DNA of 64,000 nt from Chloroflexota bacterium (GTDB taxonomy: Bacteria; Chloroflexota; Dehalococcoidia; Bin125). The notes beneath the pieces were generated by a model, which saw nothing but the letters and a program-made list of their open reading frames with translations, had not been told where the DNA came from and did not search any database. The DNA lies in assembly GCA_009838735.1 (NCBI GenBank), contig VXQZ01000030.1:1-64000 (forward strand). Reading direction: 5' to 3'. The translations under genes were made by a program, and so were the position numbers. Below are positions 1 to 9,239 of this stretch, piece by piece; position 1 is the stretch's first letter; each line of letters starts with the position of its first letter.

Positions 1-74
1 GAGTTATTGGGCGGTTGACCGCTCTGGACTGATTGGCGGCCGCATGGCCGCCATTCTCATTTGTGGAGCCTGCC

Positions 75-1022
75 GTGATTGAGGCAGTGCGTCGGTTCTG
101 GGATTGGTCGCTCCAGCCGGTCTGGTGGTTTCGGCAGGGGATCTGGCGCTCGCTGTCGACGCTCGAGATCCTGCTGGGCGGGATCGGCCTGGTCGCGGCG
201 CTGGTCGCGGCCTCGCTCCTGTCGGCGGTCTTGGACAATCTGCCGGGCGCGGCGGGAGACTTCGCCCCGATCGGCGTAGCGATCCTGCTGGCGCCGATCG
301 GCGTCGGCGTCGCGCTGGGCCGGCGGGCGGAGGTTGAGCGCTTCGTCAATACCGTGCGGGGCCGGGCGGATGAAGTGGCGGAGTCGGTGACGCTGGTGCG
401 CCCCTCAGCGCCCTCGGAGGTGATTCTCGACACGTCGGCGATCATCGACGGGCGCATCGCCGAAGTTGCGGCGAGCGGCTTCCTGCTGGCAGAGATCGTG
501 GTGCCGAGATTTGTCCTGGACGAGCTGCGCCGCGTCGCCGACAGCTCGGATCCGCTGAAGCGCGGCCGGGGCCGGGCCGGACTGGAACTGCTGGCTCGGA
601 TGCAGAGCGACGAGCGGGTGACGACCGAGATCATTGATGACGAGCAGGAGACGTCGGACGGCGACGTTGACGCGCGTCTGGTGCGCATGGCAAAGGAGCG
701 TGAGGCGGCGCTGGCGCTGACCGACTCCAATCTGGCGCGCGTGGCCGAACTCGAAGGCGTGCGAACGCTGAATCTCAATGTGCTGGCCAATGCGGTCAAG
801 ACGAACGTGTTGCCCGGCGAGCCGCTGCGGGTCGAACTGATCGAGGCCGGACGCAACGCGGATCAGGGCGTGGGCTACTTGCCGGACGGCACGATGGTGG
901 TAGTTGAGCAGGGAGTCTCGGCGATCGGCGAAACCCGAGACCTGGTCGTCAAGCGGGTGATCCAGACGCAAGCGGGGCGGATGGTGTTCGCCCAGCTGAC
1001 CGGCGACGAGGATGCGCAGTGA
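75..1022 (+). CDS. PIN/TRAM domain membrane protein (YacL-like)
   Basis: Probable membrane-anchored PIN-fold nuclease with a C-terminal TRAM RNA-binding domain; substrate unknown. Counting from the GTG at 75, two hydrophobic segments lie near residues 31-53 and 64-82. The PIN domain follows, opening with ILDTSAIIDGR, with acidic residues at about D119, E150, D199 and D217 that fit the PIN metal site. The last 65 residues look like TRAM. A TTG at 33 is also possible in frame, just after a stop codon, but GGAG at 65-68 sits 6 bases before the GTG at 75, so I prefer the latter. The stop overlaps the ispDF start. Location just upstream of ispD is usual for this family in Gram-positive type genomes. 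Confidence 0.85.
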   Translation: MIEAVRRFWDWSLQPVWWFRQGIWRSLSTLEILLGGIGLVAALVAASLLSAVLDNLPGAAGDFAPIGVAILLAPIGVGVALGRRAEVERFVNTVRGRADEVAESVTLVRPSAPSEVILDTSAIIDGRIAEVAASGFLLAEIVVPRFVLDELRRVADSSDPLKRGRGRAGLELLARMQSDERVTTEIIDDEQETSDGDVDARLVRMAKEREAALALTDSNLARVAELEGVRTLNLNVLANAVKTNVLPGEPLRVELIEAGRNADQGVGYLPDGTMVVVEQGVSAIGETRDLVVKRVIQTQAGRMVFAQLTGDEDAQ

Positions 1023-2227
1023 GGGTGGGCGCAATCGTCCTGGCGGCGGGCAGCAGCCGCCGGATGGGGGGCGGCGACAAGCTCCTGGCCGACCTGTCCG
1101 GACGGCCGGTACTGAGTTGGACAGTGTCGGCGTTCGAAGATTGCGAAGCAATCGACGATCTGGTCGTCGTGACGTCGACGGAGAATCGCGCATCGGTCGC
1201 GGAGTTGTGCCGAGGGATCGGGAAGCTGCGAGCACTGGTGACCGGCGGCAAGGAGCGCCAGGACTCAGTCTGGGCAGGGCTCAACGCGCTCGCAGGGATC
1301 GACCTGGTCGCGGTGCACGACGGCGCACGGCCGCTGATTACCGCTGAGGGGATTGCGGGATGTGTTGCACGGGCAAGCGATGGGGTCGGGGTGATCGCCG
1401 GTGGACCATCAGTGGACACGATCAAGGTTGTCGACGGAGATGAGCGGGTTCTGGAAACTCCTGAGCGTTCGACCCTGCGCGCCGTGGCAACGCCCCAGGT
1501 GTTTCGGGCGCAGACGTTGAGGCAGGCGCACGAAGCGGCGCGCCGGGACGGGATCCTGGCGACCGACGACGCTGCGCTGGTCGAGCGGCTGGGCAAGGCA
1601 GTGGTAGTGCACGACGTCGGCGGGCCGAATCCAAAGATCACCTCGCCGTCCGACCTGGTCCTGGCCGAGGCGTTGTTGGGTACCCGCTACGAGATTCGTA
1701 CAGGCATCGGCATCGACTCGCATCGGTTCGACTCGAGCCGAGAGTTGGTGCTCGGCGGCATTGGGATTGGTGACGCAGACGGACTCGCCGGGCACTCCGA
1801 TGCGGACGTGTTGACTCACGCAATCATCGACGCCCTGTTGGGCGCTGCGGGTCTGGGCGATATCGGCGCGCACTTCGGCACGACCGACCCGACCTGGGCC
1901 GGGGCCGACTCCGTCGAAATGCTGGGATTGGTCCTGGACAAGCTTGCGGCGGTCGGAGCGGAACCGCAATCGGTTGACGCTACGGTGATTGCCGAGCGAC
2001 CCCGCCTGCGTCCACACATATCAGCCATGCGGCAGCGGTTGGCCGACGCGCTGGGGCTGGAGCGGTCGGCGGTGAATGTGGCGGCGACGACGGCCGAAGG
2101 GATGGGCGCGTTGGGCCGGGCCGAAGGCATGGCGGCGCACGCAGTGGCAACGGTGCGTGTGCGGCGCCACAGCGCCGGCTCGGATACGTCGCCACAGCGC
2201 CGGGGGGCGGATGCGTCGCGTGGGTGA
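1019..2227 (+). CDS. ispDF: Bifunctional IspDF, MEP isoprenoid pathway
   Basis: Fusion of two enzymes of the non-mevalonate isoprenoid pathway in the cytosol. Residues 1-222 are IspD (CDP-ME synthase), with the nucleotide-binding AAGSSRRMGGGDK at 9-21 and VHDGARPL at 99-106. Residues 225-385 are IspF (MECDP synthase), with zinc ligands D233, H235 and H267 in GIDSHRF and LTHAI, and TTAEGMGALGR near 358. GTG start overlaps the previous stop by 4 bases; GAGGA at 1008-1012 is the likely ribosome site. IspE, the enzyme acting between these two steps, is not in the window. The last 20 residues are low complexity and probably not catalytic. Confidence 0.93.
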   Translation: MRVGAIVLAAGSSRRMGGGDKLLADLSGRPVLSWTVSAFEDCEAIDDLVVVTSTENRASVAELCRGIGKLRALVTGGKERQDSVWAGLNALAGIDLVAVHDGARPLITAEGIAGCVARASDGVGVIAGGPSVDTIKVVDGDERVLETPERSTLRAVATPQVFRAQTLRQAHEAARRDGILATDDAALVERLGKAVVVHDVGGPNPKITSPSDLVLAEALLGTRYEIRTGIGIDSHRFDSSRELVLGGIGIGDADGLAGHSDADVLTHAIIDALLGAAGLGDIGAHFGTTDPTWAGADSVEMLGLVLDKLAAVGAEPQSVDATVIAERPRLRPHISAMRQRLADALGLERSAVNVAATTAEGMGALGRAEGMAAHAVATVRVRRHSAGSDTSPQRRGADASRG

Positions 2228-2249
2228 TCGGGACGTATAGGCTGCTGGT

Positions 2250-2960
2250 ATGGCCATGCTGAATCGCATCCTGGACTGGTACTGGTCGTTCGTCGACGAC
2301 ACGTGGGCGGACATTGAATTCGCGATGGAGCGCGATCCGGCGGCGACGAACTGGCTGGAAGTGCTGCTCGCCTACCCCGGGATCCACGCGCTGATGCTGC
2401 ATCGCGTGTCGGGAGCGCTGTTGCGGCTGGGTCTGCCGGTTGCCCCCAGAATGTTGTCGCACCTGGCGCGCAACATGACCGGGATCGAGATCCATCCGGG
2501 CGCTCAGATTGCATCGCCGTGTCTGATCGACCACGGGATGGGCGTCGTGATCGGCGAGACCGCGAAGATCGGGCGTCGCTGCCATCTGCACCAGGGCGTG
2601 ACGCTGGGCGGGACGTCGACGATGCGGATGCAGCGCCACCCAATGTTCGGTGATGAGGTGCTGGTCGGAGCAGGGGCGTCGATCATTGGCGCGGTATCGA
2701 TTGGCACGGGGGCACGGATTGGCGCGGGCGCGGTGGTGGTCTCGAACGTGCCGCAGCATTCGACGGTGGTGGGGGTTCCCGGGCACGTGGTCGCCTACTA
2801 CGACCCCGGCGACGACACGGTGCTGAGGTTGCCCGACCCGGAGCACGACAGGATCGAATCACTGGAATTGGCAGTGTCGGAATTACGGCTGGAGCTGCGT
2901 CGTGTGCGCGACCAGTTGGAGGATGGCGAGGCTCGGTCGGGCGAGACGGCGGCGGGATAG
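2250..2960 (+). CDS. cysE: Serine O-acetyltransferase
   Basis: Makes O-acetylserine from serine and acetyl-CoA, the first step of cysteine synthesis. The middle of the protein has left-handed beta-helix hexapeptide repeats, with the family signatures HPGAQI, DHGMGVVIGETA and HQGVTLGGTS; the His and Asp of DHGMG fit the catalytic pair. An N-terminal helical part of about 80 residues precedes it. The C-terminal 40 residues form a short charged coiled coil not needed for catalysis in relatives. A TATAGGCT stretch lies 6 bases before the ATG, so transcription might begin almost at the start codon; there is no convincing -35. Sits directly before cysS, linking cysteine synthesis and charging. Confidence 0.92.
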   Translation: MAMLNRILDWYWSFVDDTWADIEFAMERDPAATNWLEVLLAYPGIHALMLHRVSGALLRLGLPVAPRMLSHLARNMTGIEIHPGAQIASPCLIDHGMGVVIGETAKIGRRCHLHQGVTLGGTSTMRMQRHPMFGDEVLVGAGASIIGAVSIGTGARIGAGAVVVSNVPQHSTVVGVPGHVVAYYDPGDDTVLRLPDPEHDRIESLELAVSELRLELRRVRDQLEDGEARSGETAAG

Positions 2961-2994
2961 GCTAATTGTCGGTGTGATGGCACCCCCGTTCAGT

Positions 2995-3050
2995 CCCCCC
3001 GATCAAGCCGGGGGCAGGCTCTTCGGGACAGCTTCCCCCAGAGGGGGGAA
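2995..3050. other. Two G/C hairpins in the cysE-cysS gap
   Basis: Two adjacent inverted repeats fill most of this gap. The first pairs five C at 2996-3000 with five G at 3010-3014 around a 9-base loop. The second is a perfect 7-bp stem, TTCCCCC at 3033-3039 with GGGGGAA at 3044-3050 and loop AGAG. Neither is followed by a T run, so they do not look like simple terminators. They may be a dispersed palindromic element or an RNA leader of cysS; no second copy was seen in this window. Confidence 0.5.
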
Positions 3051-3088
3051 ACGGAGTGGGCTATCGACTGAAGTTTGGGAGTTGGTCC

Positions 3089-4519
3089 GTGGAGCTGTAC
3101 AACACGCTGACACGTCGCAAACAGCCGTTTGAGCCGGTCGATGATCCGATCTCGATGTACGTCTGTGGGATTACGCCATACGACGACGCGCACCTGGGCC
3201 ATGCGATGTCGATCATCATCTTCGACACCCTGCGGCGATTCCTCGAGTGGCGGGGACGGCGGGTCCGTCTCGTGTACAACTTCACCGACGTCGACGACAA
3301 GCTGATCGCTCGTGCGGCGCAGGAAGGGATCACGGTCTCGGAGTTGGCGGAGCGGCAGATAGCGTCGTTCATGGGGGAGTGGCGGGAGCTGGGGATTGCG
3401 CCGGCCGATGTGCATCCTCGGGCGACCGAAGAGATTCCGCAGATGATCGACCTGATCGACGGGTTGATTGAGAAGGGGATGGCGTATCCGGCGGGCGGCG
3501 ATGTGTACTACCGCGTGCGTGAGATGCCGGGCTACGGCAAGCTGTCGGGTCGAACGCTGGAGGACATGATCTCGGCAGAGCCGACGGACATTGGGGTGGA
3601 GAAAGAGCACGCGATGGACTTCACCCTGTGGAAGGGCGCGAAACCGGGCGAGCCGCAATGGGCAAGTCCGTGGGGTCCCGGTCGTCCGGGCTGGCACATC
3701 GAGTGCTCGGCGATGTCGATTCGTTACCTGGGCGAACAGATCGATCTGCATGGCGGCGGGATGGATCTGATCTTCCCGCATCACGAGAACGAGATTGCGC
3801 AGTCGGAGGGTTTCTCGGGACAGGATCCGTTCGTTCGTCACTGGATGCACAACGCGATGATGCAGGTCGGCGGCGAGAAGATGTCGAAGTCGACGGGCAA
3901 GATCGTGGCGCTGCGCGAGGGACTGGATCGGTACGGCGCGGACGGGCTGCGGATGTTTGTGCTGGGCGGTCACTATCGCTCGCCGCTGACGTATTCGGAG
4001 GAGTCGCTGTTGTCAGCGGCGCGGGGCGCGGAGCGTTTGCGGACGGCGGCGACATTGCCGCTGGTCGAGGGTGACGGTGAGATTGATCCGAGCGAGTTTC
4101 GCGAGACGTTCATCTCGGCGCTGGAGGACGACTTGAACACGCCTCAGGCGCTGGCGGTGCTGTTTGAGTTGGCCCGTGAGATAAATCGAGCGCGGGCGGA
4201 GGATCGGCCCGCGGGTTTGGCGCGTGATGCGCTGGTTGAGCTTGGTGGTGTGCTGGGGCTGGGATTTGCCGGCGTGTCGGCGTCCGGTGAGTCGGATGCC
4301 GGGCCGTTCATCGATCTGCTGGTGTCGATCCGGCAGGAGTTGCGCGGGGCGAAGCAGTATGAACTGGCGGACTCGGTGCGCGACCGTCTGACGGAGCTGG
4401 GTGTGGCGCTGGAGGATACGCGCGAGGGGACGCGCTGGCGCCGGGTCCAACCCGAACCGGAAGCGGTCGAGGAGGAGCCCGGCGCCGATTCACTCGTCGA
4501 GAGCGCTCTGCGGTTCTAG
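3089..4519 (+). CDS. cysS: Cysteinyl-tRNA synthetase
   Basis: Class I aminoacyl-tRNA synthetase charging tRNA-Cys. Seen: zinc cysteines at about C26 and C206, H231 in PHHENE, the HIGH-type motif HLGH at 35-38, and KMSKS at 264-268, followed by the helical anticodon-binding part. Length of 476 residues is close to the family norm. I place the start at GTG 3089 because GGGAG at 3077-3081 is 7 bases upstream and the product then opens VELYNTLTRRK, the usual family N-terminus. A GTG at 3056 would add 11 residues but has no free ribosome site. The full-length synthetase with both signatures argues against it being the MshC ligase paralog. Ends 3 bases before the convergent LPxTG-type gene. Confidence 0.95.
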   Translation: MELYNTLTRRKQPFEPVDDPISMYVCGITPYDDAHLGHAMSIIIFDTLRRFLEWRGRRVRLVYNFTDVDDKLIARAAQEGITVSELAERQIASFMGEWRELGIAPADVHPRATEEIPQMIDLIDGLIEKGMAYPAGGDVYYRVREMPGYGKLSGRTLEDMISAEPTDIGVEKEHAMDFTLWKGAKPGEPQWASPWGPGRPGWHIECSAMSIRYLGEQIDLHGGGMDLIFPHHENEIAQSEGFSGQDPFVRHWMHNAMMQVGGEKMSKSTGKIVALREGLDRYGADGLRMFVLGGHYRSPLTYSEESLLSAARGAERLRTAATLPLVEGDGEIDPSEFRETFISALEDDLNTPQALAVLFELAREINRARAEDRPAGLARDALVELGGVLGLGFAGVSASGESDAGPFIDLLVSIRQELRGAKQYELADSVRDRLTELGVALEDTREGTRWRRVQPEPEAVEEEPGADSLVESALRF

Positions 4520-4522
4520 CGC

Positions 4523-5260
4523 CTAGTCACGATTGCGAACGGTCACCCGGCGTCGATGGGCCAGCGCTGCGACGGCGATTGCGAGGACTGTGAGCGATCC
4601 GAGGCCAGCCCAGATGGCGGTGCGACCATTGGAGTCTGCGAGTCCGCCGCTACCGGTGTAGGGCAGTCCGACGCCGGCGTCGGCCATTGCCGGCTGACAG
4701 GGCACAATCTGAATGTGGGCCGGGATTGAGGCGCCGAAGCTGGCCAGCAGGTCGAGCGCCTGTTGCGGGTCGTAGGATTCGCCAAGGACGATGACGTCAA
4801 TCAATCGGCCGCCTTCGCCAACGTTGATCGTGATTTGGTATTGCTGGCCGGCTGCTGTGACGTTCTCGTCGTAGGATCCAGGTCCGAGGTTCAGGCAGAG
4901 CCCGGGAGCCGCTTCTTCCATCATGCTGTCGCCGCCGACTTCACACTCAATGAATGTGACGCCGTCGGGAAGCGGGTATGCGTCATCGCCGGCGAAGATC
5001 TCAAGCATCGCGGCGGGCGGGATCGATTGTCCGCCAGGCTCGGTGAAGCCGGTGACCAGGCCGCCGTCGCCGACAGTGACGGTGAAGGAGACCTCGCCCT
5101 CGCGGTCGCGGGCTGGGGCGGTGAATGTGTGCTCGCCAGGGGCGAGAGAGACGCAGACGGCAGGTCCAGCAGGCTGAGCCGACACGGATTGCACAGTCGC
5201 GAGCCCAAACGCGCCGACAACAAGAGCCGCCCCAACCAGGGCGATCAAGAGGCGATTCAT
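4523..5260 (-). CDS. Secreted LPxTG-type protein with two repeats
   Basis: Unrecognised exported protein of 245 residues. A signal peptide with cleavage probably after VSA at 26-28 is followed by two tandem copies of a domain of about 75 residues (35-108 and 121-190). Each opens with C-(V/L)-x-L-x-P-G, carries a VGxGG turn in the middle and ends in a second Cys (C36/C106 and C122/C188), which suggests one disulfide per copy. The C-terminus has LPYTG at 199-203, a hydrophobic segment and the basic tail HRRRVTVRNRD, which is the layout of a sortase cell-wall sorting signal. No sortase is in the window. AGGGG lies just before the ATG. Function unknown; a structural or adhesive surface role is only a guess. 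Confidence 0.75.
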   Translation of the reverse strand: MNRLLIALVGAALVVGAFGLATVQSVSAQPAGPAVCVSLAPGEHTFTAPARDREGEVSFTVTVGDGGLVTGFTEPGGQSIPPAAMLEIFAGDDAYPLPDGVTFIECEVGGDSMMEEAAPGLCLNLGPGSYDENVTAAGQQYQITINVGEGGRLIDVIVLGESYDPQQALDLLASFGASIPAHIQIVPCQPAMADAGVGLPYTGSGGLADSNGRTAIWAGLGSLTVLAIAVAALAHRRRVTVRNRD

Positions 5261-5393
5261 GGGATTCCCCTGTCAAGCGTTTATCGAGCGGATTGAATGA
5301 TGAATAAACGCGATTGCAGGATAGAGACTTCGTTGATTGCGTCAAATGAAAAAAACTGTCTGGTGCGTGGATTTCGCTTTAGGATCGAGTCAG

Positions 5394-5469
5394 GCCCAGG
5401 TGGCGCAATAGGCAGCGCAGCCGATTTGTAATCGGCAGGTTGGGGGTTCGAATCCCCCCTTGGGCTCCA
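5394..5469 (+). tRNA. tRNA-Thr (anticodon TGT)
   Basis: Cloverleaf: acceptor GCCCAGG pairs with CTTGGGC (one G-T), D stem GCGC/GCGC, anticodon stem CCGA/TCGG around loop TTTGTAA giving anticodon TGT, and T arm GGGGG-TTCGAAT-CCCCC. The 3' CCA is encoded. First of three tRNAs before tuf. The 133 bases between the LPxTG-type gene and this tRNA hold no gene; a weak -10 like TAGGAT lies at 5380-5385. Confidence 0.96.
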
Positions 5470-5583
5470 CCAGAAGCTATCTCGGTAGAGATCCAGTTTG
5501 CGTGCTGGTCAACAGATCAGCGGGTGGACTGCACGCTGAGCGTAGATGTGAGCCTGGGCCATGGGGGGTAAGATGTTGAGAGT

Positions 5584-5669
5584 GTCGGGGTGGGTGAGTG
5601 GCTAATACCACCGGTCTGTAAAACCGGCGCCGAAAGGCTTCGCAGGTTCGAATCCTGCCCCCGGCACCA
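5584..5669 (+). tRNA. tRNA-Tyr (anticodon GTA)
   Basis: Class II tRNA with a long variable arm, as expected for bacterial Tyr. Acceptor GTCGGGG pairs with CCCCGGC (one T-G), anticodon stem CCGGT/ACCGG encloses CTGTAAA giving GTA, and the T arm is GCAGG-TTCGAAT-CCTGC. The 3' CCA is encoded. About 110 bases separate it from the preceding tRNA. Confidence 0.96.
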
Positions 5670-5767
5670 GCATTGACGAGCAGCCGCCGCGGCAATCAGA
5701 GATGCCGTCGGCGGTTCTGGCGTTGAATCGGCCAGATCATCGAAGCGGAGCAGCACTGCAGCATCGG

Positions 5768-5843
5768 GCCCGCATAGCTCAGTCGGTAGAGCGCGTTCTT
5801 GGTAAGAACGAGGTCTCCAGTTCAAATCTGGATGCGGGCTCCA
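5768..5843 (+). tRNA. tRNA-Thr (anticodon GGT)
   Basis: Acceptor GCCCGCA pairs with TGCGGGC; anticodon stem CGTTC/GAACG encloses TTGGTAA giving GGT; T arm CCAG-TTCAAAT-CTGG; CCA encoded. Lies 61 bases before tuf. The 98 bases before it, after tRNA-Tyr, contain no recognisable tRNA, although the E. coli tufB cluster has tRNA-Gly in that place. Confidence 0.96.
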
Positions 5844-5904
5844 TCCGCTCTCACGGTTGGATCTGGCGGTAACAGCGCTGCCACTGTCATCAGGAGGACT
5901 CAAG

Positions 5905-7107
5905 ATGGCGCGACAGGTATACGAGCGGACGAAGCCGCACGTGAACGTGGGCACGATTGGTCACGTGGATCACGGCAAGACGACGCTGACGGCGGCGATC
6001 ACGAAGACGCTGGGGTTGTTGGATCCGAACGTGTCGTTTTCGAGTTTCGACTCGATTGACAACGCGCCGGAGGAGCGGGCGCGGGGGATCACGATTGCGA
6101 TTGCGCACGTGGAGTACGAGACGGAGGCGCGGCACTACGCGCACATCGACGCGCCGGGTCACGCGGACTACATCAAGAACATGATTACGGGCGCGGCGCA
6201 GATGGACGGCGCGATTTTGGTGGTGGCGGCGCCGGACGGACCGATGCCGCAGACGCGGGAGCACATCTTGTTGGCCCGCCAGGTGGGCGTGCCGCGGATG
6301 GTGGTCTACCTGAACAAGGTGGATCAGATGGACGACGAGGAGTTGCTGGACCTGGTCGAGCTGGAGGTCAGGGAGTTGCTCTCGGACTACGAGTTTCCGG
6401 GGGACGACATTCCGGTGATTCGCGGTTCGGCCTTGCAGGCGCTGGAGTCGGACTCGACCGACGCGGAGTCTGAGGAGTACGCCTCGATTCGGGAGTTGAT
6501 GGAGGCGGTGGACGAGTACGTGCCGACGCCGCCGCGTCCGGTGGAGCAGCCGTTCCTGATGCCGATTGAGGACGTGTTCGGGATCAAGGGTCGTGGGACG
6601 GTGGCGACGGGTCGGATCGAGCGTGGGATTGTCAACTCGGGCGAGGAGATTGAGATTGTCGGGATCAAGGACACCAGGACGACGGTGGTGACTGGTGTGG
6701 AGATGTTCAAGAAGACCTTGCCGACGGGCGAGGCGGGGGACAACGTGGGATGTCTCCTGCGGGGCATCGACCGCGACGAGATCGCGCGCGGTCAGGTGTT
6801 GGCGGCGCCGGGTTCGATCACACCGCATACGGCGTTTACGGCTGAGGTCTACATCCTGTCGAAGGACGAGGGCGGGCGTCACAGTCCGTTTTTCCCGGGC
6901 TACCGGCCGCAGTTTTACATTCGCACGACGGATGTGACGGGCGAGATCGGCTTGCCGGAGGGTGTGGAGATGGCGATGCCGGGCGACAACGTGCAGATGC
7001 AGGTGCGCTTGATTTCGCCGATTGCGCTGGAGGAGGGGCTGCGTTTCGCGATTCGCGAGGGCGGCCGCACGGTGGGCGCCGGCGCTGTCACGTCGATCCT
7101 GGAATGA
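5905..7107 (+). CDS. tuf: Elongation factor Tu, copy 1
   Basis: GTPase that delivers aminoacyl-tRNA to the ribosome. Visible: P-loop GHVDHGKTT near residue 18, switch [29 protein letters not shown] and GSAL for guanine recognition, then the two beta-barrel domains. 400 residues. Start at ATG 5905 is set by AGGAGG at 5892-5897 and by the identical start of copy 2; an in-frame GTG-type extension upstream has no support. Sequence is identical to tuf copy 2 for the first 1,194 bases; only the penultimate residue differs (Leu here, Met there). Strongly G-rich coding strand. Lies downstream of three tRNAs and upstream of rpmG, secE and nusG, the tufB-type location. Confidence 0.98.
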
Positions 7108-7211
7108 TCCGGGAGTAGTTCGGCATAGCGCAGAGGTCGCCAAACGTGCGAAGATGGAGTTGTCCAGCCGCGCCGGTGCATCCGGTCGGCGTCTGAGGAA
7201 GGGAACTGGCC

Positions 7212-7373
7212 ATGGCGAAGGGTGACCGCGTGTTCATCACGCTGCGCTGCCGCGAGTGCCAGTCGCATACGTATCACACGACGAAGAATCGTCGGAACGA
7301 TGCGGATCGTCTGGAGTTGACGAAGTTCTGTCCGACCTGCCGCGGGCGCCGGGCGTACCGAGAGACGCGGTGA
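7212..7373 (+). CDS. rpmG: Ribosomal protein L33
   Basis: Small 50S subunit protein of 53 residues. The family pattern is clear: basic start MAKGDRV, then CREC at 13-16, [14 protein letters not shown] at 23-36 and CPTC at 40-43, so this is the zinc-binding (four-Cys) form. ATG start; secE begins 3 bases after the stop. The 104 bases between tuf and this gene hold no gene. Location before secE is typical in Gram-positive type genomes. Confidence 0.95.
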
Positions 7374-7376
7374 TCC

Positions 7377-7811
7377 GTGGCCAGATCGCGAGATAGCCGC
7401 CGGAGACGTGGTCGGCGTAGCGGACAGCCGCGCGCGGCATCCGCGACGCCGCGCCCAACTAGATCGAGCGCGCCGCGTCCCGAACCGTCGCTCTCGGGAT
7501 CGGACGGACCGGCCATGTCGGGTGGGGCGGCGGAAGCAGCGGCGCTGCCGGCTCGGCCGCGCAGAGAGATCGCCGCATCGCGACCGACCACGGAAGATGC
7601 GCCGCGAGTCCAGAGCCTGCTCTACCGACTCACACATCCGCGGGCGATCCTGGCGATCATTGACGAGCTGCGTAAGGTCGTATGGCCGACGCGCCAGGAA
7701 ACGGCCAACCTGACGGTGGTTGTGCTGGTTGTCGCCATCGCGGTTGGTATTTTCCTGGGCGCGATTGACTTTGGCTTGAATCGCGTGGTTGAAGAGACGC
7801 TGTTGCCCTAA
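7377..7811 (+). CDS. secE: Preprotein translocase subunit SecE
   Basis: Single-span subunit of the SecYEG export channel. The conserved part is the last 60 residues: amphipathic ELRKVVWPTRQE, then a transmembrane helix rich in Val, Ile and Ala near residues 110-135. The first 80 or so residues form an unusual low-complexity extension rich in Arg, Ser, Pro and Ala, probably disordered and cytosolic. GTG start just after rpmG; the stop overlaps the nusG start by one base. Total of 144 residues is about twice the short bacterial form. Confidence 0.93.
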   Translation: MARSRDSRRRRGRRSGQPRAASATPRPTRSSAPRPEPSLSGSDGPAMSGGAAEAAALPARPRREIAASRPTTEDAPRVQSLLYRLTHPRAILAIIDELRKVVWPTRQETANLTVVVLVVAIAVGIFLGAIDFGLNRVVEETLLP

Positions 7812-8725
7812 TGACAACTTCACGAGACACCGAAGAACGGCAAACAGGAGACAGCGGATTTGGCCGCCGTGAGATCTCGGCGGCCGAGCGCGAGTTGCAG
7901 GAAGTGCTGGCCGCAGCGCGAGCTCTGGGGATCGAAACTGAAACGGCGCCTGAGGAGACGGAGATCGACACGACCGCCGCCGAGGCGCTGGTCGAGTTGG
8001 GCCTGGACCGCCCGGTCGAAGAAGAGGCGACGCCGATCGCGTCGTTTCTGCAGGGAGACGACGCGGAGGATGACGCGGCTGAGCCGGCGATCTCGCTGGA
8101 GGGGATCCAGGAGACGAATGCGGCCTGGTTCGCGATCAATACGTACACCGGACATGAAAGCCGTGTGCGCGACGCGCTGGATCTGCGCATCCGCAACATG
8201 GATGCAGAGGATCAGTTCGTCGAGCTCTTACCAGAGCAGGCCGGCGCGCCGAAGAAGGGCATGGCGGACAAGCGATTCGTGTTGGTGCCCACACAACAGG
8301 AGGTCGAGATTCGCGGCGGTAAGCGTCGCGAGGTCGAGCGAAAGCTGTTGCCCGGATATGTGCTGTTGCAGATCCGGCTCGACCGGGATACTGGCCAACT
8401 GTCCGACCAGTCGTGGCACGTGGTCAACGGAACAGCCGGTGTGACCGGATTCGTCGGCACACGGGAAGACCTGCGCGACCGCGCGATTCCCCTGCCGCCG
8501 GCGCAGGTAGCCAAAATCATCGGCCAGACTCAGGTCGAGGAGCCGCGCGTGCGCGTGGGGTTCTCGGTCAACGACTCGGTGCGCCTGACGGATGGTCCGT
8601 TCCTGGACATGGTGGCCGAGGTGGAAGAGATCAACGTCGAGAAGGGCAAGGTTCGAGTGCGGATTTCGATGTTCGGCCGCGAGACGCCGCTCGAGCTCGA
8701 CTTCGACCAGGTGGAGAAGCAATAG
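7811..8725 (+). CDS. nusG: Transcription factor NusG
   Basis: Binds RNA polymerase and couples transcription to translation and termination. The NGN domain begins at AAWFAINTYTGHE (about residue 104), with the usual ERKLLPGYVL segment, and the KOW domain with VNDSVRLTDGPF lies in the last 60 residues. About 100 residues of acidic, low-complexity sequence precede the NGN domain, longer than in E. coli and comparable to extensions seen in high-GC Gram-positive NusG. TAATG junction with secE. Confidence 0.96.
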   Translation: MTTSRDTEERQTGDSGFGRREISAAERELQEVLAAARALGIETETAPEETEIDTTAAEALVELGLDRPVEEEATPIASFLQGDDAEDDAAEPAISLEGIQETNAAWFAINTYTGHESRVRDALDLRIRNMDAEDQFVELLPEQAGAPKKGMADKRFVLVPTQQEVEIRGGKRREVERKLLPGYVLLQIRLDRDTGQLSDQSWHVVNGTAGVTGFVGTREDLRDRAIPLPPAQVAKIIGQTQVEEPRVRVGFSVNDSVRLTDGPFLDMVAEVEEINVEKGKVRVRISMFGRETPLELDFDQVEKQ

Positions 8726-8813
8726 GTTCACACCCGGGGACACCGAGTAGGCTGAGTACTTACGTCTGCGCGCCATCGGCCGCTGGCCGAGCGCGGAAGA
8801 GGGAGATAGTTGG

Positions 8814-9239
8814 ATGGCGAAGCGTGTACGCGCAGTGTTGACGCTGCAGTTGGAGGCGGGCAAGGCCAGCCCGGCGCCGCCCGTCGGCCCAGCGTTGGGT
8901 CAGCACGGCGTGGGGATCATGGAGTTCGTTAAGAGCTACAACGAGCGGACGGCGTCCAGCGCCGGTGAGTTGATTCCCGCTCAGATTACAGTTTTCGAGG
9001 ATCGTTCCTTCAGCTTCGAGCTGAGGACTCCGCCGGCTTCGGACTTGATTCGGCGCGCGGCCGGATTGGAAAAGGGCGCTTCCGAACCTCGTCGAGAAGT
9101 GGCGGGTTCGATCACCTCGGACCAGGTGCGGGCGATCGCCGAACAGAAGATGCAAGACCTGAATGCAAACGACATCGAAGCGGCGATGCTGATGATCTCC
9201 GGCACGGCGCGCTCGATGGGCGTAGAAGTCGAGGGTTAA
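8814..9239 (+). CDS. rplK: Ribosomal protein L11
   Basis: 50S protein of the GTPase-associated centre. N-terminal signature [21 protein letters not shown] and the C-terminal rRNA-binding part with [20 protein letters not shown] are both recognisable; 141 residues is the usual length. ATG start with GGGAG upstream. The 88-base gap after nusG has TTCACA at 8727-8732 and TAGGCT at 8748-8753, spaced too closely to be a convincing promoter. Confidence 0.97.

Follow-up and report, generated by a model that had tools for sequence, protein, structure and literature searches.

The question raised by this locus is what kind of protein is encoded by a small open reading frame of a Chloroflexota genome, and how such a protein could be held at the cell surface. 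The frame lies on the minus strand at positions 4523–5260 of the window (the whole 64,000-nt stretch of DNA that was analysed) and its translation is a 245-AA product; all features given below are on the same strand. The two most hydrophobic 19-residue windows, 5–23 and 216–234, correspond to a signal peptide (about residues 1–29, positions 5174–5260), in which A28 and Q29 at the putative cleavage site are the same in all 12 orthologues, and to a membrane helix (about residues 214–235, positions 4556–4621), also seen as a low-confidence tail helix in the full-length structure model. Between the two lie a pair of repeat units, then LPYTG (residues 199–203, positions 4652–4666), overlapped by the stretch GSGGLAD (residues 203–209, positions 4634–4654). 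The helix is followed by a basic C-terminal tail, RRRVTVRNRD (residues 236–245, positions 4526–4555). This is the layout of an LPXTG-type protein, i.e. a signal peptide and then a C-terminal motif, a membrane helix and a basic end, and it bears out a reading made earlier from the letters of the DNA (hereafter the sequence-only reading). Our results show that the protein resembles the substrates of a known mechanism, that of the sortases, combined with a lineage-specific variant of the signal and with an orphan domain.

The open reading frame is a real gene, vertically inherited and under purifying selection, as follows from its presence across the genus, its constant neighbor cysS, its rate of change and its conserved promoter. 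When the 20 genomes of the order were searched, relatives spanning most of the protein were detected in 12 of the 15 genomes of the genus, its own included, but not in the remaining three (G006, G011 and G012). Five genomes of the order come from other genera, two of them with a match to the tail only and three with no match. The gene adjoins cysS at all 11 other loci examined, with tuf on its opposite side at seven (the remaining fetched stretches end before it) and a trio of tRNA-Thr, -Tyr and -Thr genes at ten, the eleventh stretch having none. The gene order of the window, with cysS and the tRNA genes, matches that of the other loci, and this fixed position argues against recent mobility. 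Neither a viral nor a plasmid origin was supported: none of 33 candidate stretches in viral contigs was a relative, a translated search of plasmids gave no match, and megablast of window positions 1–9000 against plasmids matched two records over short stretches only. Against the nearest orthologue we obtained a dN of 0.10 and a dS of 0.66 (dN/dS about 0.15), and another close pair of orthologues gave 0.12. Over all pairs of the 12 sequences, mean pN/pS was lowest in unit 1 (0.29), followed by the motif stretch (0.36), unit 2 (0.49) and the helix and end (0.69). A consensus scan found one promoter-like site, TTGACG-16-TATCCT (positions 5318–5345), vs. a mean of 0.3 in shuffled sequences; when the 12 upstream regions were aligned, all had TATCCT and 11 had TTGACG.

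Beyond the window's own record, the gene was located at no fewer than 12 loci in named genomes, all of them metagenome bins of Chloroflexota/Dehalococcoidia, and the names of the other bins presumably point to sponges or reefs. One bin, bin125, comes from the metagenome of the sponge Aplysina aerophoba and is placed under Chloroflexi without the SAR202 label (PMC5649159). A profile of the repeat unit run on a draw of 400 genomes of the phylum matched five, four of the genus and one weakly. This weak match, in G296 outside the genus (22.1 bits), lies in a long RHS-like-looking open reading frame and was set aside as chance.

Unit 1 comprises residues 34–108 (positions 4937–5161), bounded by Cys36 and Cys106, and unit 2 residues 119–191 (positions 4688–4906), bounded by Cys122 and Cys188. 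All four cysteines are conserved without exception in the 12 orthologues. The units are homologous to each other, with a similarity well above chance as judged from their sequences: blastp aligned them at 25% identity (E 6e-6), their Smith–Waterman score (z 8.9) was reached by none of 2000 shuffles, and a single profile comparison with 12 orthologous copies per unit gave a probability of 97.3% and an E of 2e-11. The sequence-only reading had described two copies of a cysteine-flanked repeat, and this holds, the units being of about 73 residues and diverged. It had also not recognized the domain, and our searches agree. At cut-off no Pfam, NCBIfam or PHROGs family was matched by the repeat, and PDB sequence searches returned one row each, with E of 1.1 and 1.4. 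Big_9 (PF17963) was rejected, as its 18.3 bits are below the cut-off of 23.6 and its alignment (residues 22–66) falls partly in the signal peptide.

The full-length model had a pLDDT of 65 and its fold matches were not useful. A single-unit model, of unit 2, was predicted with confidence (pLDDT 87.3, pTM 0.71), with strands at 10–18, 21–29, 34–40 and 43–45, one helix at 47–57 and short strand pieces beside both cysteines. A Foldseek search with this model was empty at E up to 0.001. An FMN-binding domain, suggested by the succession of strands and helix, was dropped as its sole support was one row with Z of 2.6 (8p2b). Profile search and structure prediction, both proposed with the sequence-only reading, thus gave neither a known family nor a close fold, and the unit is a small orphan domain with a confident model. 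The cysteine pairs 36–106 and 122–188 probably form disulfides closing each unit.

We then compared the presumed sorting signal among orthologues. Strict LPxTG is present in only 2 of the 12; the four residues before the invariant glycine are LPYT, YPTT, FPYT and YANT in two sequences each and YPAT, YVNA, YANA and YPTS in one each. Counted by position, P is kept in eight sequences, and the place of T is occupied by T in nine, A in two and S in one. In contrast, G-x-GGLAD is invariant in 12 of 12 (G203, G205, G206, L207, A208 and D209). Since a strictly conserved LPxTG was looked for and not found, we regard the protein as a variant rather than a standard LPXTG protein; of the LPxTG-type assignment made in the sequence-only reading the architecture stands, but LPxTG as the conserved feature does not. 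No curated anchor profile of Pfam or NCBIfam was reached at cut-off, in searches where HMMER filters drop weak matches. The best, GVDTG_CTERM (NF058571), matched the tail weakly at 17.8 bits, and a tail protein of genome G015 at 19.6 bits, vs. a cut-off of 29.

A DNA pattern for G[ST]GGLAD, which matches in the tail of the window's gene, was found at 48 places in the order's 20 genomes, vs. 4 for the reversed pattern. Three of the 48 were dropped as chance, and the remaining 45 are C-terminal tails with a helix and a basic end, borne by other, unrelated exported proteins. Position 1 of the motif in these tails is Y in 23, F in 9, L in 8, M in 3 and P in 2; 40 of the tails have P at position 2, and position 4 is filled by T in 29, S in 13, A in 2 and V in 1. 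As the invariance of G-x-GGLAD in this set follows from the search pattern itself, independent support for it comes from the 12 orthologues and from profile matches. A profile was built from the 45 tails. In the class-wide search it gave 24 matches in the family lacking the exact pattern; of the 23 that were read, G-x-G-G is kept by 22 and strict LPxTG occurs in 7. Matches of this kind are in part to be expected within the order, because the profile was made from the order's own tails. The signal of the lineage reads mostly as [YFLM]-P-x-[TS]-G-x-G-G-L, often then A-D.

On the gene's own genome (G000) the tail profile gave 12 rows, six of which are tails. Three are GGLAD tails with E of 5e-16 or less, and the other three are APRTGSGGLDT (C37:50069, E 1.1e-4), LPNTGNGGLVE (C41:25514, E 0.004) and APSTGTGGVLD (C37:51061, E 1.06), the last being recognized by reading. 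A row on C28 sits in a transporter-like protein and also has an E of 0.004, so that the weak rows rest on the motif. Rows on C27, C19 and C25 belong to membrane or other proteins without the motif, and two weak rows (C39 and C1) were left out of the reading of tails.

As an LPXTG-type signal implies a sortase, the sequence-only reading had expected one elsewhere in the genome, and we found two PF04203 sortase genes over cut-off, side by side on contig C25. Of the two outcomes named beforehand as speaking against that reading, a genome devoid of sortases and a repeat that clearly belongs to a described domain family, neither was thus seen. Both contain GHR, TLITC and a downstream Arg, aligned with the catalytic His, Cys and Arg. 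Two sortases, adjacent by coordinates, are present in every one of the genus's 15 genomes, and at least one sortase is present in 19 of the 20 genomes of the order, with none matched in G015. In 30 overlapping sortase loci at least one gene at each has GH and TLxTC; GHR occurs in 29 of them and GHV in one (L021). The suggestion of a class E enzyme was not sustained: the best NCBIfam class model for both sortases of the genome is class F (NF033748; 79.8 and 63.1 bits), although both are far under its cut-off of 166 bits, and the class E model gave 36.0 and 34.7 bits. The roles of class F sortases are described as unknown in PMC13251363, where deletion of four of them in Actinoplanes brought no visible change.

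The sequence-only reading had also assumed a single-membrane envelope, and this received support. PF00905 (penicillin-binding transpeptidase) gave five matches at four loci of the genome. No Omp85 match was obtained at E up to 1, in a search that was positive in 8 of 14 control genomes. Together with the sortases, these results favor an envelope of one membrane with a peptidoglycan wall and anchoring to that wall, at a genome completeness of 96.6% that leaves room for an assembly gap. Peptidoglycan genes are reported to be present in sponge Anaerolineae and Caldilineae and to be lacking in SAR202 (PMC6306507), and the word sortase is absent from the text of that paper. Judged largely by titles and the first lines of abstracts, the literature on sortases or LPXTG proteins in Chloroflexota and sponge symbionts seems nearly silent, and strings of the tail motif were not found in the literature searched.

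To see how far the tail and the sortases go together, 294 genomes of the class were compared, with tail matches accepted at E up to 1e-4 and at most 23 candidates scored per genome. The tail was matched in 29 genomes, 19 of them of the order, and a sortase in 154. A sortase is present in 27 of the 29 tail genomes vs. 127 of the 265 others (Fisher p 1.8e-6, kinship not corrected); outside the order the numbers are 9 of 10 vs. 126 of 264 (p 0.009, again with kinship uncorrected). The exceptions are G015 and G134, with a tail but no sortase match, and, in the other direction, G011, with two sortases but no tail match. Among the tails of the ten genomes outside the order four keep G-x-G-G and the others differ there, which indicates that it is chiefly this family that has the double glycine, T-G being the more widely kept. 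The exact GGLAD pattern occurs outside the order at about 60 places in 52 genomes, vs. 30 for the reversed pattern (hand count), and some of these places do not encode S or T at the second place. A wide spread of GGLAD tails was rejected, as only one of 12 such places that were read is a C-terminal tail (G188).

In our opinion the protein is probably exported by Sec and anchored by a sortase at the surface of a Chloroflexota bacterium with a single membrane. The architecture, orthology, selection, promoter, sortase and transpeptidase genes and the other tail proteins are read directly from the sequence. The chain would be exported by Sec and its signal peptide removed, after which the two small strand–helix domains would fold extracellularly, a disulfide probably closing each of them, with the C-terminal helix and basic tail keeping the chain in the membrane. 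A cut before Gly203, i.e. between Thr202 and Gly203, as presumed from known sortases, would then be made by one enzyme of the tandem pair of class-F-like sortases, which would join the cut chain to a cell-wall precursor; the cleavage, the covalent anchoring and the choice of enzyme are steps that we infer. With LPXTG signals the tail shares the signal peptide, a mostly kept P-x-T-G, the helix, the basic end and sortases in the genome; it differs from them in the rarity of strict LPxTG, in keeping G-x-GGLAD after the presumed cut and in reaching no anchor profile at cut-off. Evidence against the sortase reading comes from the orthologues, in which the L, P and T known to be read by sortases vary (YVNAG, YANAG, YANTG, YPTSG). 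The exceptions G015, G134 and G011 also count against it, as do the scores under cut-off of both the anchor profiles and the class F model.

This variation, set beside an invariant part that is rich in glycine, would suit a different reader of the tail, such as a rhomboid-type protease as proposed for GlyGly-CTERM, with the likeness to LPxTG being secondary. GlyGly-CTERM tails, as described in PMC3237569, likewise combine a helix and basic residues with a glycine motif that is often SGGS, and the two genomes with a tail and no sortase match fit such a reader too. Yet most tails have P-x-[TS]-G before the glycines (P in 40 of 45, T or S in 42 of 45), sortases accompany the tail in 27 of 29 genomes, and no GlyGly-CTERM model was among the matches listed for five tail proteins at E up to 10 or 1; we consider this reader unlikely. 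Somewhat less likely still is that the C-terminal helix just keeps the protein, unprocessed, in the membrane. A helix with a positive end suffices as an anchor, and cleavage is here a matter of inference; against this, G-x-GGLAD is invariant in a protein whose fastest-evolving part is the helix and end (pN/pS 0.69 vs. 0.36 for the motif stretch), and the same motif is borne by unrelated proteins.

A separate alternative concerns the repeat units, which could be lysozyme-inhibitor-like domains guarding the cell wall from host lysozyme. Of the first five rows of the fold search with the single-unit model, two were entries of PhiA (both with Z of 4.0), one was PliC (Z 3.9) and one the adhesin complex protein of Neisseria (Z 3.8), in alignments covering 51–54 residues. 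PhiA and the Neisseria protein act as lysozyme inhibitors. The first row, however, was the unrelated YopQ (Z 4.3), values of Z near 4 are common according to the tool, and neither Foldseek (E up to 0.001) nor sequence searches linked the unit to such a family. The predicted fold bears a weak likeness to C-type lysozyme inhibitors, and we give this role little chance. Our best guess, made because of the company of other tail proteins, is that the two units form a module which may bind or inhibit something extracellular, facing either the host matrix or competitors.

Within the sortase reading a bolder version can be put forward tentatively, though the odds are against it: that what is recognized in the signal sits mostly on the leaving side of the cut (G-x-G-G-L-A-D), with the preceding residues free to drift (YVNAG, YPTSG, APRTG). 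The tail would then be a distinct class of signal, paired with tandem class-F-like sortases and displaying orphan and animal-matrix-like domains (the two-unit domain, Spondin_N and TIMP-like) on sponge-dwelling bacteria. If the reading of the tail as a sorting signal is right, the tail is a searchable tag by which wall-displayed proteins can be listed in uncultured Chloroflexota, some of them from sponges, and it provides a testable claim on substrate choice by these sortases.

The proteins bearing such tails in the family are diverse and include a GDSL lipase (E 2e-22) and weak Ig-like proteins. Spondin_N-like tail proteins were seen in G018 (L184, 25.9 bits) and G017 (L186, 24.6 bits) over a cut-off of 24, and a third (L180, G002) fell below it with 16.5 bits. 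Small TIMP-like tail proteins were represented by L116 (G000:C41:25514-25642) and its relatives L179, L188, L191 and L177, with CSCAPPGTP as the likely mature start. Pfam TIMP was matched by four of these five at E up to 1, the best E of 0.0015 being below cut-off, and a PDB search with the TIMP-like protein gave TIMP-1 as the first row (E 0.073) and in 10 of 14 rows. The resemblance to animal metalloproteinase inhibitors is weak, yet striking for sponge-associated bacteria.

Other tail proteins have unusual compositions or repeats. Two adjacent ones at G000:C37:73959-75500 (L004, L086) carry, ahead of the motif, long stretches rich in Met, Asp and Glu (MMEDDDS repeats) and adjoin a protein of 808 AA that looks exported and has no Pfam match; similar acidic, Met-rich stretches are present in many tail proteins of the genus. 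In a tail protein of G019 (L017:1474-2439) another type of unit, about 90 residues long (CLGVYEPD, YRYHT), occurs twice; L196 (G017) has apparently one copy of it, and neither protein gave a relevant Pfam match over cut-off. The genome G001 (bin125) had 11 places of the pattern and 13 profile matches, far above other genomes of the genus, and several of its tails are near-identical (GVSAGLIGLLIALxVAAxAGLGLRRVRNRA), as if a family had expanded there.
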